Assembly: GCA_013373375.1 (NCBI GenBank)
Contig: JABXHY010000009.1
Span: 124,001-188,000 of the forward strand
Direction of reading: 5' to 3'
Source of the DNA: Gammaproteobacteria bacterium
Lineage (GTDB): Bacteria > Pseudomonadota > Gammaproteobacteria > Enterobacterales > Kangiellaceae
Length of the DNA: 64,000 nucleotides
The position numbers were made by a program, and so were the translations under genes. Shown one piece after another: positions 34,364-46,860 of the stretch. The first letter of the stretch is position 1. Every line of letters begins with the position of its first letter. The notes under the pieces are model-generated. The model was not told the origin of the DNA, did no database searches, and worked only from the letters and a program-made list of their open reading frames with translations.

Positions 34364-34388
34364 CAAAAAAACGGCCGCATGCGGCCGT
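34364..34388 (-). terminator. Rho-independent terminator of the TonB locus
   Basis: ACGGCCGCATGCGGCCGT is an 18-bp perfect palindrome followed, on the minus strand, by seven T (34370-34364). It lies 30 bases after the TPR gene stop and closes the locus. The plus side lacks a T-run. Confidence 0.9.
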
Positions 34389-34417
34389 GGGAAAATAGGG
34401 AGTGTCGCTTAGTATTA

Positions 34418-35764
34418 TTATAATTGTTCTATTTCTTCGCCAAATTCCATAACCAGTTGTTGGCGTTTACTTTTCTCTTTTGAAACATACGCAATCCACT
34501 GCTCAGCCATCTTGCCAAACTTCTCATTAGACTTAGCTTGAGTAAATTGATCGGTCGAGCGATCGTATTGCTTTAAGTTGAAGTAAGCCATTCCCATGGC
34601 AATGTGGACCGTTTCTGAGTCTTTGAGTTGCCCTTTATCTAAAGCCTTTTCACCGTACTCAATAACTTTTATCCACTCTTCCTGATTTACGTATACTTCC
34701 GCGAGTTGACCATAGGCATCACCCGAGTCTGATTGAGACGCAACTTCTTCTAGCACAGGGATCGCTTTATCAAACTCTTTCGCAACCATCCAAGCTTGCG
34801 ATTGAAACTCAAGGTTCTTAAGCGATTTCTCAAGCTTGTCACTTTCAAAAGCTTCATCCATTAATTTAGCCGCTTTGAATGGAGCACCATTCATGTAATA
34901 AAGCTGAGCCAAGTTTTTGAGATCCGTACCTTTAGTGACATAGCCTTGCTGATGTGCCGCTTCCATTACGGCCATTTGCTTCGCTTCTTCGCCAACTTCA
35001 CCGTACATATTGCCCAGCTCAATCCAATACTTTGGTTTGCTGTAATATCGAACCAAATCTTCAGAAACCGCCGTCACTAACTTTGGTTGGTTCAACTCAT
35101 AGTGCACCGCTCGCTTTAAGATCAAAACGTTTTCTGCAGGCACACCACCATCTGCTTTTTCTAATGCAATAGATTTATCCAAATGCTTTAGCGCGCGTGG
35201 GTAATCTTTCTTTGCATAATAAGCATTCGCTAGTAAGCCTTCGCTTTTCGAATTCCCTGAGTCGCCGCTGACTTTCGACCAACGATTAATGTAGTTAATC
35301 GCCTCGTCGTATTTTTCGATCTGCATGTTTAGTTGAGCCAAACTGTAAAGAGTTGATTGCTCCAGAGTTTCTGGAATGGGATCTTGCTCCAACACTTTCT
35401 GAAATGCACGAATCGTCAAGTTAGTCTCATCAGCACCGTAATGAATGAAAGCCATAAAATTGTAGACCATGGCCGCCTCATAAGAGTTAAGCTGATCAAC
35501 ACGTCTTTCCATATCTTTTAGAAACGTCAGACCTTCTTTAACTTTGCCTTCATCGGCCAATTTTTGCGCCGTTTCTAATTGAGCAAAGACACGCGAACGC
35601 AAAGCAGGATAACGTCGCTTCTTCTTATTTGAATCTTCAGCATACACGCTAGCAAAGTTACTACCATTAAAAACAGAGTCCATAACAAATGGCGCACCAT
35701 TAAAAATAAGCATTAACGTTGCGAGACGAAGAAAAAACGAAACTGTGTTAATTAAAATGTTCAT
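34418..35764 (-). CDS. Tetratricopeptide-repeat protein of the TonB2-type system
   Basis: A 448-residue exported protein (N-terminal hydrophobic segment about 8-28, then SVYAEDSNKKKR) with many TPR-like helical pairs, for example SYEAAMVYNFMAFIHYGAD, ALKHLDKSIALEKADGG and AIPVLEEVASQSDSGDAYG. TPR genes end the TonB2 operons of vibrios, where they are thought to assist the energy-transduction complex. The gene is 14 bases after tonB and last in the operon. Confidence 0.88.
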   Translation of the reverse strand: MNILINTVSFFLRLATLMLIFNGAPFVMDSVFNGSNFASVYAEDSNKKKRRYPALRSRVFAQLETAQKLADEGKVKEGLTFLKDMERRVDQLNSYEAAMVYNFMAFIHYGADETNLTIRAFQKVLEQDPIPETLEQSTLYSLAQLNMQIEKYDEAINYINRWSKVSGDSGNSKSEGLLANAYYAKKDYPRALKHLDKSIALEKADGGVPAENVLILKRAVHYELNQPKLVTAVSEDLVRYYSKPKYWIELGNMYGEVGEEAKQMAVMEAAHQQGYVTKGTDLKNLAQLYYMNGAPFKAAKLMDEAFESDKLEKSLKNLEFQSQAWMVAKEFDKAIPVLEEVASQSDSGDAYGQLAEVYVNQEEWIKVIEYGEKALDKGQLKDSETVHIAMGMAYFNLKQYDRSTDQFTQAKSNEKFGKMAEQWIAYVSKEKSKRQQLVMEFGEEIEQL

Positions 35765-35778
35765 TTTTTTACTCCCAT

Positions 35779-45600: not shown

Positions 45601-46600
45601 GTAATAATTAAATCACCACTTTCTGCGTTAGCACGAGTTTCAGGAAAGCTATCCACTTCCAAACATTCACCCATACCACTCGGACCCGTCACAACAATGT
45701 TATGCAAACGACCCGCAGTACCGTGACGTAACAAAATACCTTCTGAATCTTCATCAGGAACATTGCCACCCACAACAGTAACGTTCGATACCATTGGATC
45801 TGAAACAGGCGCCGTTAAAGGAAAGTCTTCGCTGTTGTCCGATTCAAAAGCTCGGTTACCCGCTGTATCATTGTGCTGAATGTAAACGAACTGTGCACGC
45901 CCAGACCAACCGAATGCCCAATCTAAACTGTCATCACCGTTTCCAGTCAGTACAACGTGTTTAATATTTACTGAGCCACCGAAAAACTCAACACCATCGT
46001 CAAGGTTTTCGTGAACTTGAATGTATTCAACAGTTGTTGCATCACCAACACCTGCGAAAGTAATACCGTTTAGCTCGTCGCCCGCAGCCAAAGAGTTACC
46101 CGCATGCTTTACAACAACGTAACGCAAAGTACCTGAGTTATCGTTTGGATCGTCACCACCGTAAAGACCAGCATCACCTTCTGCAGCAATACCACAGTTT
46201 GCAAGTTCCGTTGCGTCGGTGTCGAAATCACCATTTCCGTCACACAAGTTTGCAGGTGCATTACCAAGTAATACTAATCCACCCCATTGACCGATTCCGG
46301 TTTCGTCACCATTCACATCTTCGAACGAAGTGAACACAATTGGTGAACCTTGTGTACCGCTGGCATTAATTTGAGAGCCACGACGAACCACTAAAAAGTC
46401 ATCACCTTCGTTACCAATGACGGTCGTCCCTGCTTGAATGGTTAAGGTCGCTGGGTCTTCGTTGTCATTTCCAACCGCAACACGTCCGTTTAATAACCAT
46501 AAAATGTCATTTGTCAGAGTTTGATTTGAAGTAAAAGTGTAATCTTCGTTTAACTCACAAACCTGACTGAACGAACCAATCGCATTGATTTCCGTAGCAA
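42663..46600 (-). repeat. Three tandem coding repeats of about 1.3 kb
   Basis: The beta-helix gene contains three copies of one module. Junctions recur as FPQITDKPVYRL near 45250-45215 and 43915-43880, with DNA-level identity that is high by eye over many stretches (for example the CDGNGD to AEGDAGLYG block). Homologous recombination could change copy number, and short-read assembly may collapse them. Confidence 0.9.
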
Positions 46601-46760
46601 AGTCCGGGCAGAAAGAACCCGGATCAGGATCGGGTCCAGGACCTGGGCCCGGATCAACTACAACTTCGTCCCCTTCATTAATTTTAATATCGCCAGTACA
46701 ACCTGCTAACGCTAACGCGCTTGCAACCGCACTCGCGGTAAGTAATTTTGTTAAATTCAT
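42663..46760 (-). CDS. Triple-repeat beta-helix lipoprotein
   Basis: A 1365-residue putative lipoprotein with lipobox LALAGC (Cys21) and a Gly-Pro-Asp spacer (about residues 34-50). Three units of about 440 residues follow, each running VGNDN, IGEtGDDFLVVRRGS, GIGQWGGLVLLG, CDGNGD, DATELANCGIAAEGDAGLYG, GTTVDYIQVHENLDDGVEFF and GENFKGTATTGGLTTEAWFL. The glycine- and asparagine-rich short-strand pattern indicates a right-handed parallel beta-helix. Related secreted proteins occur in Bacteroidetes and gammaproteobacteria without known activity. The start at 46760 has GGAGA six bases upstream. It is first of the TonB uptake locus, probably a surface partner of the receptor. Confidence 0.9.
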   Translation of the reverse strand: MNLTKLLTASAVASALALAGCTGDIKINEGDEVVVDPGPGPGPDPDPGSFCPDFATEINAIGSFSQVCELNEDYTFTSNQTLTNDILWLLNGRVAVGNDNEDPATLTIQAGTTVIGNEGDDFLVVRRGSQINASGTQGSPIVFTSFEDVNGDETGIGQWGGLVLLGNAPANLCDGNGDFDTDATELANCGIAAEGDAGLYGGDDPNDNSGTLRYVVVKHAGNSLAAGDELNGITFAGVGDATTVEYIQVHENLDDGVEFFGGSVNIKHVVLTGNGDDSLDWAFGWSGRAQFVYIQHNDTAGNRAFESDNSEDFPLTAPVSDPMVSNVTVVGGNVPDEDSEGILLRHGTAGRLHNIVVTGPSGMGECLEVDSFPETRANAESGDLIITHSVVACDNAENFKGTATTGGLSTEDWFLGQTGNAAYNGSAALNLAANGYQPLVGSPLLGAGIDASTVDSWFESTDYIGAFDGTTDWTEGWTVGVRGGFPADIQNAFERGLASNVSSEFPQITDKPVYRLSNGTTFTEDTTLTNDAHWILDGRIAVGNDNTNNTTLYVQQGTTLIGETGDDFLVVRRGSKLEAIGSVGAPIIMTSIQDVIGQETGIGQWGGLVLLGKAPSNLCDGNGDNVADATELANCGIAAEGDAGLYGGDDPEDNSGTLKFVVVKYAGKALAAGDELNGISFAGVGRGTTVDYIQVHENLDDGVEFFGGTVDVRHVVLTGNGDDSFDWAFGWTGRAQYVYIQHNDTLANRGFESDNSEDFPAATPLTSPTVSNVTIIGNNAPGGDSEGVLLRHGTAGVLRNFVITGPAGMGECLEVDGFAETQANAESGALIMTHSVVACENGENFKGTATTGGLTTEAWFLGQAGNSAFTDSSALNLLSDGFTPRSGSPLLGAGYDVSADDNWFQPTNFIGAFNGQDNWMDGWTYGVNSGVPGNVPSASDRGLATDASSSFPQITDKPVYRLGADTVFTQDTVLTNDKHWVLQGRTAVGNDNADSATLYIEPGTIIFGESGDDFMVVRRGSKLEALGSATAPIIMTSVQDVTGQATDIGQWGGLVLLGNAPVNLCDGNGDFNADATELANCGIAAEGDAGLYGGDDPEDNSGTLRYLVVKYAGKALAAGDELNGISFAGVGRGTTVDYIQVHKNLDDGVEFFGGTVDVKHLVLTANGDDSFDWAFGWIGRAQYVLIKHDASFANRGIEGDNSEDFPQTTPVTNPIVANFTIIGANNVDSEGVLLRHGTAGELYNFIITGPAGMGECLEVDSFAETQANAESGALIMENSVVACENGENFKGIATTGGLTTEAWFLAQTGNAVIANQAGAVTNYVTATTTAARDMNAIDSWFDTVDFVGAVGSDNDWTAGWITVGL

Positions 46761-46828
46761 TGTTATCTCCGCAAGGATCTTTGATGCATTTACTATTGCA
46801 GGTTCGCAGAGTAGTCGTACAAAGTTGC

Positions 46829-46860
46829 ATAAATATGACATTAAGAGATGTCATATTTAT
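46829..46860 (-). promoter_or_regulatory. Perfect dyad upstream of the beta-helix gene
   Basis: ATAAATATGACA and TGTCATATTTAT form 12-bp perfect arms around 8 bases, 69-100 bases before the start codon. On the minus strand it shares TCTTAATGTCATAT with the sequence at 39790-39803 before the exb/tonB operon. This suggests a common regulator. Confidence 0.6.

Follow-up and report, generated by a model that had tools for sequence, protein, structure and literature searches.

In Caulobacter crescentus the surface lipoprotein ElpS (CC0170) is made and released in phosphate starvation, and it is encoded before the receptor CC0171 and the genes gspC-N of a type II secretion system (T2SS) (PMC2996285). 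Phosphate depletion induces three lipoproteins of Flavobacterium johnsoniae, FI, FII and FIII, reported as 31-36% identical to the Caulobacter protein; FI and FII adjoin TonB-dependent transporters, the FII pair within a phoBR operon, and these lipoproteins and their transporters are repressed under nitrogen and iron limitation (PMC8115612). In Vibrio, the TonB2 and TonB3 systems share the six-gene order ttpB-ttpC-exbB-exbD-tonB-ttpD, and TonB3 operons start with an outer-membrane receptor (PMC6957404). Here, we report a locus in which an ElpS-like lipoprotein and its receptor precede a TtpC-type TonB operon, found in a stretch of 64,000 nucleotides from a gammaproteobacterium of the Kangiellaceae (GCA_013373375.1, contig JABXHY010000009.1, positions 124,001 to 188,000), hereafter the window. 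We consider it likely that the locus encodes a TonB system under PhoB control that is dedicated to the uptake of a phosphorus-containing nutrient.

All genes of the locus are on the minus strand and follow one another in transcription as lipoprotein, TonB-dependent receptor, a gap of 398 bp, ttpB, ttpC, exbB, exbD, tonB, a TPR gene and a terminator. The first-pass annotation had described a self-contained locus of receptor, 1365-residue lipoprotein, TonB genes and terminator, and the list of open reading frames (ORFs) and a Pfam search place all of its genes where it had put them, as follows.

42663..46760, minus strand: ElpS-like lipoprotein with three tandem, predicted right-handed beta-helix units; the ORF is open to 46841 and the lipoprotein signal starts from 46760
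39895..42594, minus strand: TonB-dependent receptor, CC0171-like partner; Plug PF07715, TIGR01782 below cut-off, adjacent partner in relatives
38720..39496, minus strand: ttpB (DUF3450); PF11932 at 298.8 bits
37349..38704, minus strand: ttpC (DUF3450-like N-terminus and ExbB domain); PF01618, weak PF11932, and tree
36816..37343, minus strand: exbB (MotA_ExbB); PF01618
36391..36798, minus strand: exbD; PF02472
35779..36384, minus strand: tonB (TonB_C); PF03544
34418..35764, minus strand: ttpD-like TPR protein; TPR families, last gene as in Vibrio tonB2 (PMC6957404)
34371..34388, minus strand: intrinsic terminator closing the operon; 7 pairs, 6 of them GC, then a T-run
39718..39749, minus strand: Pho-box-like triple 11-bp repeat before ttpB; repeat scoring upstream of genes
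46833..46880, strand undirected: Pho-box-like repeats before the lipoprotein gene, in a variant form in the window's genus; repeat scoring
39498..39647, minus strand: candidate structured leader RNA of ttpB with a covarying stem; covariation analysis

Inspection of the translations indicates that the true starts are likely at 42552 (Met15) for the receptor and at 39466 (Met11) for ttpB. Lipoprotein and receptor are 68 bp apart, while the 398 bp between receptor and ttpB hold a Pho-box-like site and an imperfect hairpin. Because this gap has Pho-box-like repeats of its own, the locus is probably transcribed as two co-regulated transcripts, lipoprotein-receptor and ttpB-to-ttpD, which refines the layout described earlier; its closing terminator stands.

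The closest described protein appears to be ElpS, as judged from the gene order of homologues. Homologues of about 32-41% identity in Maricaulis (L181, L200) and in L179, L075-L078 and L082 are arranged as lipoprotein-receptor-gspC-gspD-gspE, which is the order CC0170-CC0171-gspC, and the family link is thus one of synteny and not of direct comparison with CC0170. As in ElpS/CC0171, a lipobox lipoprotein lies directly before a TonB-dependent receptor in a phosphate-starvation context. ElpS, however, is about 50 kDa, roughly one unit, and its neighbour is a T2SS instead of a TonB complex, whereas the window lipoprotein has three units and no T2SS genes were found beside the locus, the T2SS being elsewhere in the genome. 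The T2SS neighbourhood is not universal among relatives either, since only 3 of the 78 named loci hold at least three gsp genes. FI and FII (PUSIII and PUSIV) likewise combine lipoprotein and receptor and are specific to low phosphate; they belong to a different phylum, their likeness to the window lipoprotein goes through the link to ElpS reported in PMC8115612 and not through direct comparison, and the parts of that source drawn upon here mention no dedicated TtpC/ExbBD/TonB operon. The SusCD and PusCD systems also pair a surface lipoprotein with a TonB-dependent transporter, but the window lipoprotein is a predicted beta-helix in which Pfam finds no SusD-family domain. The window operon matches the gene set and order of the TTP (TonB2/TonB3-type) systems. 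In TonB3 a receptor heads the operon; in the window the receptor is upstream of ttpB, with the gap and a separate promoter-like site between them. Vibrio TonB2 is regulated by Fur and iron and no ElpS-like lipoprotein is described there, in contrast to the Pho-box-like control predicted for the window operon and a TtpC clade of its own. The view that TonB2-type operons usually serve many receptors, against which the locus had originally been set, was overstated, as Vibrio TonB3 starts with a receptor (PMC6957404) and, of 15 TtpC operons outside the clade, at least 5 have a receptor of another type no more than about 3.3 kb away. A literature search yielded no recognised description of a phosphate-linked TtpC/DUF3450 operon; subscription papers were outside its scope and an earlier description is possible.

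The lipoprotein was found in 13 of 61 genomes searched, that of the window included. Within the window's family, receptor and TtpC operon lie directly downstream in 10/10 carriers, a count that includes one genome whose contig ends inside ttpC (G025), one with the lipoprotein gene split over two contigs (G016) and one with both the lipoprotein and the receptor gene fragmented into several ORFs (G014). A second family of the order has seven carriers, with the TtpC operon within 3 kb in four, at about 12 kb in one and elsewhere in two. Among 299 sampled genomes of the phylum, which are not independent by descent, the lipoprotein occurred in 30, DUF3450 over its cut-off in 32 and both in 14; in 7 of these 14 the two were within about 12 kb of each other, against some 2% expected per genome from gene density by our own rough estimate, and chance proximity of lipoprotein and TonB operon is therefore unlikely. 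The 78 named loci, in which those with short flanks were retained, hold a receptor in 71 cases and at least three TonB-complex components in 27. In 63/78 named loci and in 36/39 others the receptor gene neighboured the lipoprotein gene within 500 bp and with the same orientation; one carrier, G211, is without its neighbourhood in this set, and 40 regions cover the other carriers. Seven loci from diverse metagenome-assembled genomes (MAGs; L175, L185, L188, L191, L193, L195, L198) combine the lipoprotein, a TtpC complex and a receptor of more than 1000 aa with TtpC-type genes that are split differently, and may form a second lineage of the pairing, independent of the first.

The pairing is also reflected in the phylogeny of TtpC. 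In a tree of 32 rows, 15 formed a clade with support 100/100, and these were all 13 lipoprotein-adjacent rows, one row about 12 kb from the lipoprotein (L110) and one beside phoBR (L113). The genome of the window has a second TtpC operon (L111, G000:C91), which falls outside this clade, lies behind pspA/IM30 and pspC genes, and has no Pho-box-like site. Another genome, G158, has a very divergent TtpC operon in two copies; the genes are ordered differently, and the copies adjoin or lie close to the two lipoprotein genes of this genome. This type sits on a long branch of unsure placement, and similar gene orders occur in MAGs labelled Methylothermaceae, Methylomonas, Pseudobacteriovorax and Oligoflexia. 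Pairing with the lipoprotein is seen in two clearly distinct TtpC lineages, the 15-row clade and that of G158 with its long branch. The linkage in the whole family, the 27 loci with a TonB complex and the separate clade support the initial proposal of a dedicated system.

Phosphate genes are found beside a number of the loci. Orthologues of phoB, phoR and/or pstS, called by identity thresholds, were present in 15 of the 78 named loci, or 16 when L129 is counted, a locus of the window's family in which PhoB and PhoR pass curated cut-offs. The NCBIfam cut-offs were passed by PhoB and PhoR in L129, L130, L136 and L189 and by PstS in L130, and the regulator in L193 was below its NCBIfam cut-off. 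Eight of the 78 loci had both phosphate genes and a TonB complex in the arrangement phoB-phoR-pstS-lipoprotein-receptor-TtpC operon, including those of Alteromonas abrolhosensis, A. marina, A. lipolytica, Salinimonas, Glaciecola and Ningiella, and the Alteromonas-type order reads phoB-phoR-pstS-lipoprotein-receptor-ttpB-ttpC-exbB-exbD-tonB-ttpD. In L113 (G341:C17) a TtpC operon of the same clade lies directly behind phoB-phoR-PBP_like_2 with neither lipoprotein nor receptor beside it, the lipoprotein being on another contig. Between pstS and the lipoprotein gene, two Alteromonadaceae loci also encode a 2-oxoglutarate-Fe(II) oxygenase (PF13640; L130:7488-8288, L142:8605-9441).

Direct repeats of 11 bp, as in the Pho regulon, precede both putative transcripts. 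The sites, called Pho-box-like here, are sequence matches to a general Pho-box consensus. Before ttpB, three TGTCA-like repeats at 39718-39749 are present in the window and in genus members (window score 15/18, p 0.005 from shuffles), and before the window lipoprotein gene the opposite strand scores 16/18 (p 0.005). Full two-unit matches occur in the lipoprotein promoters of L054, L055 and L057-L059. Scored over the whole window the motif gave 10 sites, no more than mononucleotide shuffles did (4-12), and gene-upstream regions with control genes were therefore used. Strong repeats (11 of 12 or 15 of 18, thresholds set after earlier gene-upstream scores had been seen) preceded 59/112 lipoprotein genes and 21/35 ttpB genes compared to 15/300 other genes, a random draw from the pooled upstream regions, and 0/105 receptor genes; the groups leave out PhoB, PhoR and PstS matches and regions too near a contig end, and the Fisher p values of 3e-26 and 6e-15 overstate independence, as the loci overlap and are related. 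The lack of strong sites before receptors fits their co-transcription with the lipoprotein. Among pstS-like control genes, 8/11 reached p <=0.05 on at least one score. A shuffle p of <=0.03 on at least one score was obtained for 15/16 TtpC operons of the clade (the 15 tree rows and L058, which was too short for the tree) and for 1/15 outside it, with the two G158 copies (0.02 and 0.01) set aside.

The lipoprotein ORF is 1392 aa long, and translation from Met28, which gives 1365 aa, contains a lipoprotein signal with the lipobox LAGC. It consists of three tandem units of about 430 aa that are 67-72% identical in DNA. Unit 2 of the window is 73-86% identical to unit 2 of each family member and 65-72% identical to their units 1 or 3, the exception being the truncated third unit of L059 (73%), and the triplication therefore predates the split of the family. 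Beta-helix ORFs of the named loci had one unit in 24 cases, two in 46, three in nine and none in one fragment. Sequence searches with the lipoprotein in Pfam, NCBIfam and the PDB gave no usable match. An AlphaFold2 model of unit 2 built from 65 sequences (pLDDT, its per-residue confidence, 91.8; pTM, its predicted template-modelling score, 0.92) was aligned by VIA-align with NosD, alginate epimerases, pectate lyases and tailspikes at Z 23.5 to 19.3 among the 50 rows shown, the top superposition having a root-mean-square deviation of 3.3 over 275 residues, while Foldseek returned nothing with E below 0.001. From the strand pattern of the model and the VIA-align matches, unit 2 is predicted to be a right-handed beta-helix, in agreement with what had been read from the sequence at the outset. 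Across 65 rows of the unit alignment the acidic clusters DDGxE (197-201) and DDSxDW (219-224), E249 and D251 are conserved and four cysteines are nearly invariant, a pattern that would fit two disulphides and a site for a metal or ligand.

A 150-nt element (39498-39647, minus strand) that includes a 19-bp stem lies downstream of the Pho-box-like site and ahead of ttpB; it is a candidate for a genus-restricted, structured and covarying RNA leader. Across four genus members, both partners vary in 8 of 33 pairs and pairing is kept in 96.2% of alignment cells, compared to a shuffled mean of 90.0 and 27-53% for slid partners; a third small hairpin covaries by eye, the loop ACTTTCCCAGTT is invariant, and a pseudoknot is possible. 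The covariance model derived from the four members matched, among 37 genomes searched, only the four of the genus that have the locus, and an Rfam search of window positions 32000-48000 gave no match. As a long inverted repeat may also covary by exchange between its arms, an RNA function of the leader is putative.

We infer surface location and low-phosphate induction from the published relatives. In phosphate starvation, PhoB would switch on the adjacent transcripts lipoprotein-receptor and ttpB-ttpC-exbB-exbD-tonB-ttpD. The lipoprotein, with its three beta-helix units, would be exposed on the outer face of the outer membrane and there capture or present a ligand, which the partner receptor would move across the membrane, powered by the locus's own TtpC/ExbBD/TonB complex, and PstSCAB or other transporters would then bring the phosphorus into the cell. 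The ligand itself, its binding by the lipoprotein and the exclusive energising of this receptor are inferred steps. The substrate, at first taken as of no known kind and perhaps polymeric, can be narrowed to most likely a phosphorus compound because of the phoB, phoR and pstS neighbours, the Pho-box-like promoters and the low-phosphate induction of ElpS and of FI and FII. In a more specific proposal, a TtpB/TtpC/ExbBD/TonB/TtpD machine under PhoB control is reserved for phosphorus and energises a single ElpS-partner receptor, the multi-unit beta-helix lipoprotein being the surface receiver of a phosphorus ligand; for this we would put the chances at about even.

Several observations weigh against uptake of a phosphorus compound by a dedicated system. 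CC0171 of Caulobacter was reported to be constitutively expressed (PMC2996285), and induction of the gammaproteobacterial members is deduced from relatives and promoter sequence. The window's own lipoprotein promoter carries only a variant box, and the box of pstS in the same genome is weak (p 0.13). The loci are not independent of one another, the splits inside the TtpC clade are partly unresolved, and 51/78 named loci are without three TonB-complex components. In many loci of Shewanella, Idiomarina and Aliidiomarina both TonB and phoBR genes are missing from the vicinity, and many alphaproteobacterial loci are without a TonB operon close by, so that a separation of these genes in relatives, named by the first-pass annotation as what would speak against its proposal, is absent within the family and in part real outside it. 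The idea that lipoprotein neighbours include phosphatases was unsupported, none being found in the ten neighbours scanned of 221 listed.

The lipoprotein could instead act as an enzyme on the cell surface or activate secreted phosphatases, a role put forward for ElpS, with an unrelated or signalling ligand for the receptor and the TonB operon a mere neighbour. Overproduction of ElpS does raise extracellular alkaline phosphatase activity (PMC2996285), the beta-helix fold is common to polysaccharide lyases and epimerases, and the units have many invariant acidic residues. However, ElpS is not itself a phosphatase, re-folded or immunoprecipitated protein having no such activity (PMC2996285), and both the close receptor in most loci and the Pho-box-like promoter of the TonB operon itself make this explanation unlikely. 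Similarly improbable is an ordinary TonB2-type energiser, mainly iron-related and serving multiple receptors, that was placed here by chance. The six-gene order equals that of Vibrio tonB2 and tonB3 (PMC6957404) and other TtpC operons adjoin receptors as well, but the operon has Pho-box-like repeats and no Fur-like site (the best Fur-box match before the window ttpB was 10 of 19, p 1.0), its TtpC belongs to a separate clade, the genome has a second TtpC operon elsewhere and the linkage with phoBR-pstS is recurrent. That surface display or release of the lipoprotein, and not nutrient import, is what the TtpC/ExbBD/TonB complex powers could be suspected from the alphaproteobacterial pair, whose neighbour is a secretion machine in some cases. 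TonB-dependent receptors act as importers, though, and gspD of the T2SS was present in 10/10 family genomes tested. ElpS, moreover, reaches the outside of the outer membrane without the T2SS (PMC2996285), and we regard such a role in display or release as highly improbable.

Other genes flank the locus. Past the end of the operon (window positions 32218-34333) are a diacylglycerol kinase, a PAP2 phosphatase and a glycosyl transferase (PF13528), which possibly serve lipid remodelling; PAP2 and glycosyl transferase genes also adjoin the operon of L053 and that of L056. Directly upstream of the lipoprotein gene, a protein with a RelA_SpoT domain barely over the cut-off is encoded (46977-47999), and it was not found as a lipoprotein neighbour in relatives at the identity threshold used. 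A sequence search with the receptor gave no match in the PDB.

What is known of TTP-type TonB systems comes mainly from iron uptake. If the locus serves phosphorus uptake as we propose, marine bacteria would spend proton-motive force on bringing phosphorus across the outer membrane, and ElpS and its relatives in Flavobacterium, which are abundant at the cell surface under low phosphate and lack an agreed function, would gain a testable role as receivers for an importer. In the Alteromonas versions the regulator is clustered with the binding protein, the receptor and the energiser, and the proposal may therefore be tested by deletion in culturable strains.

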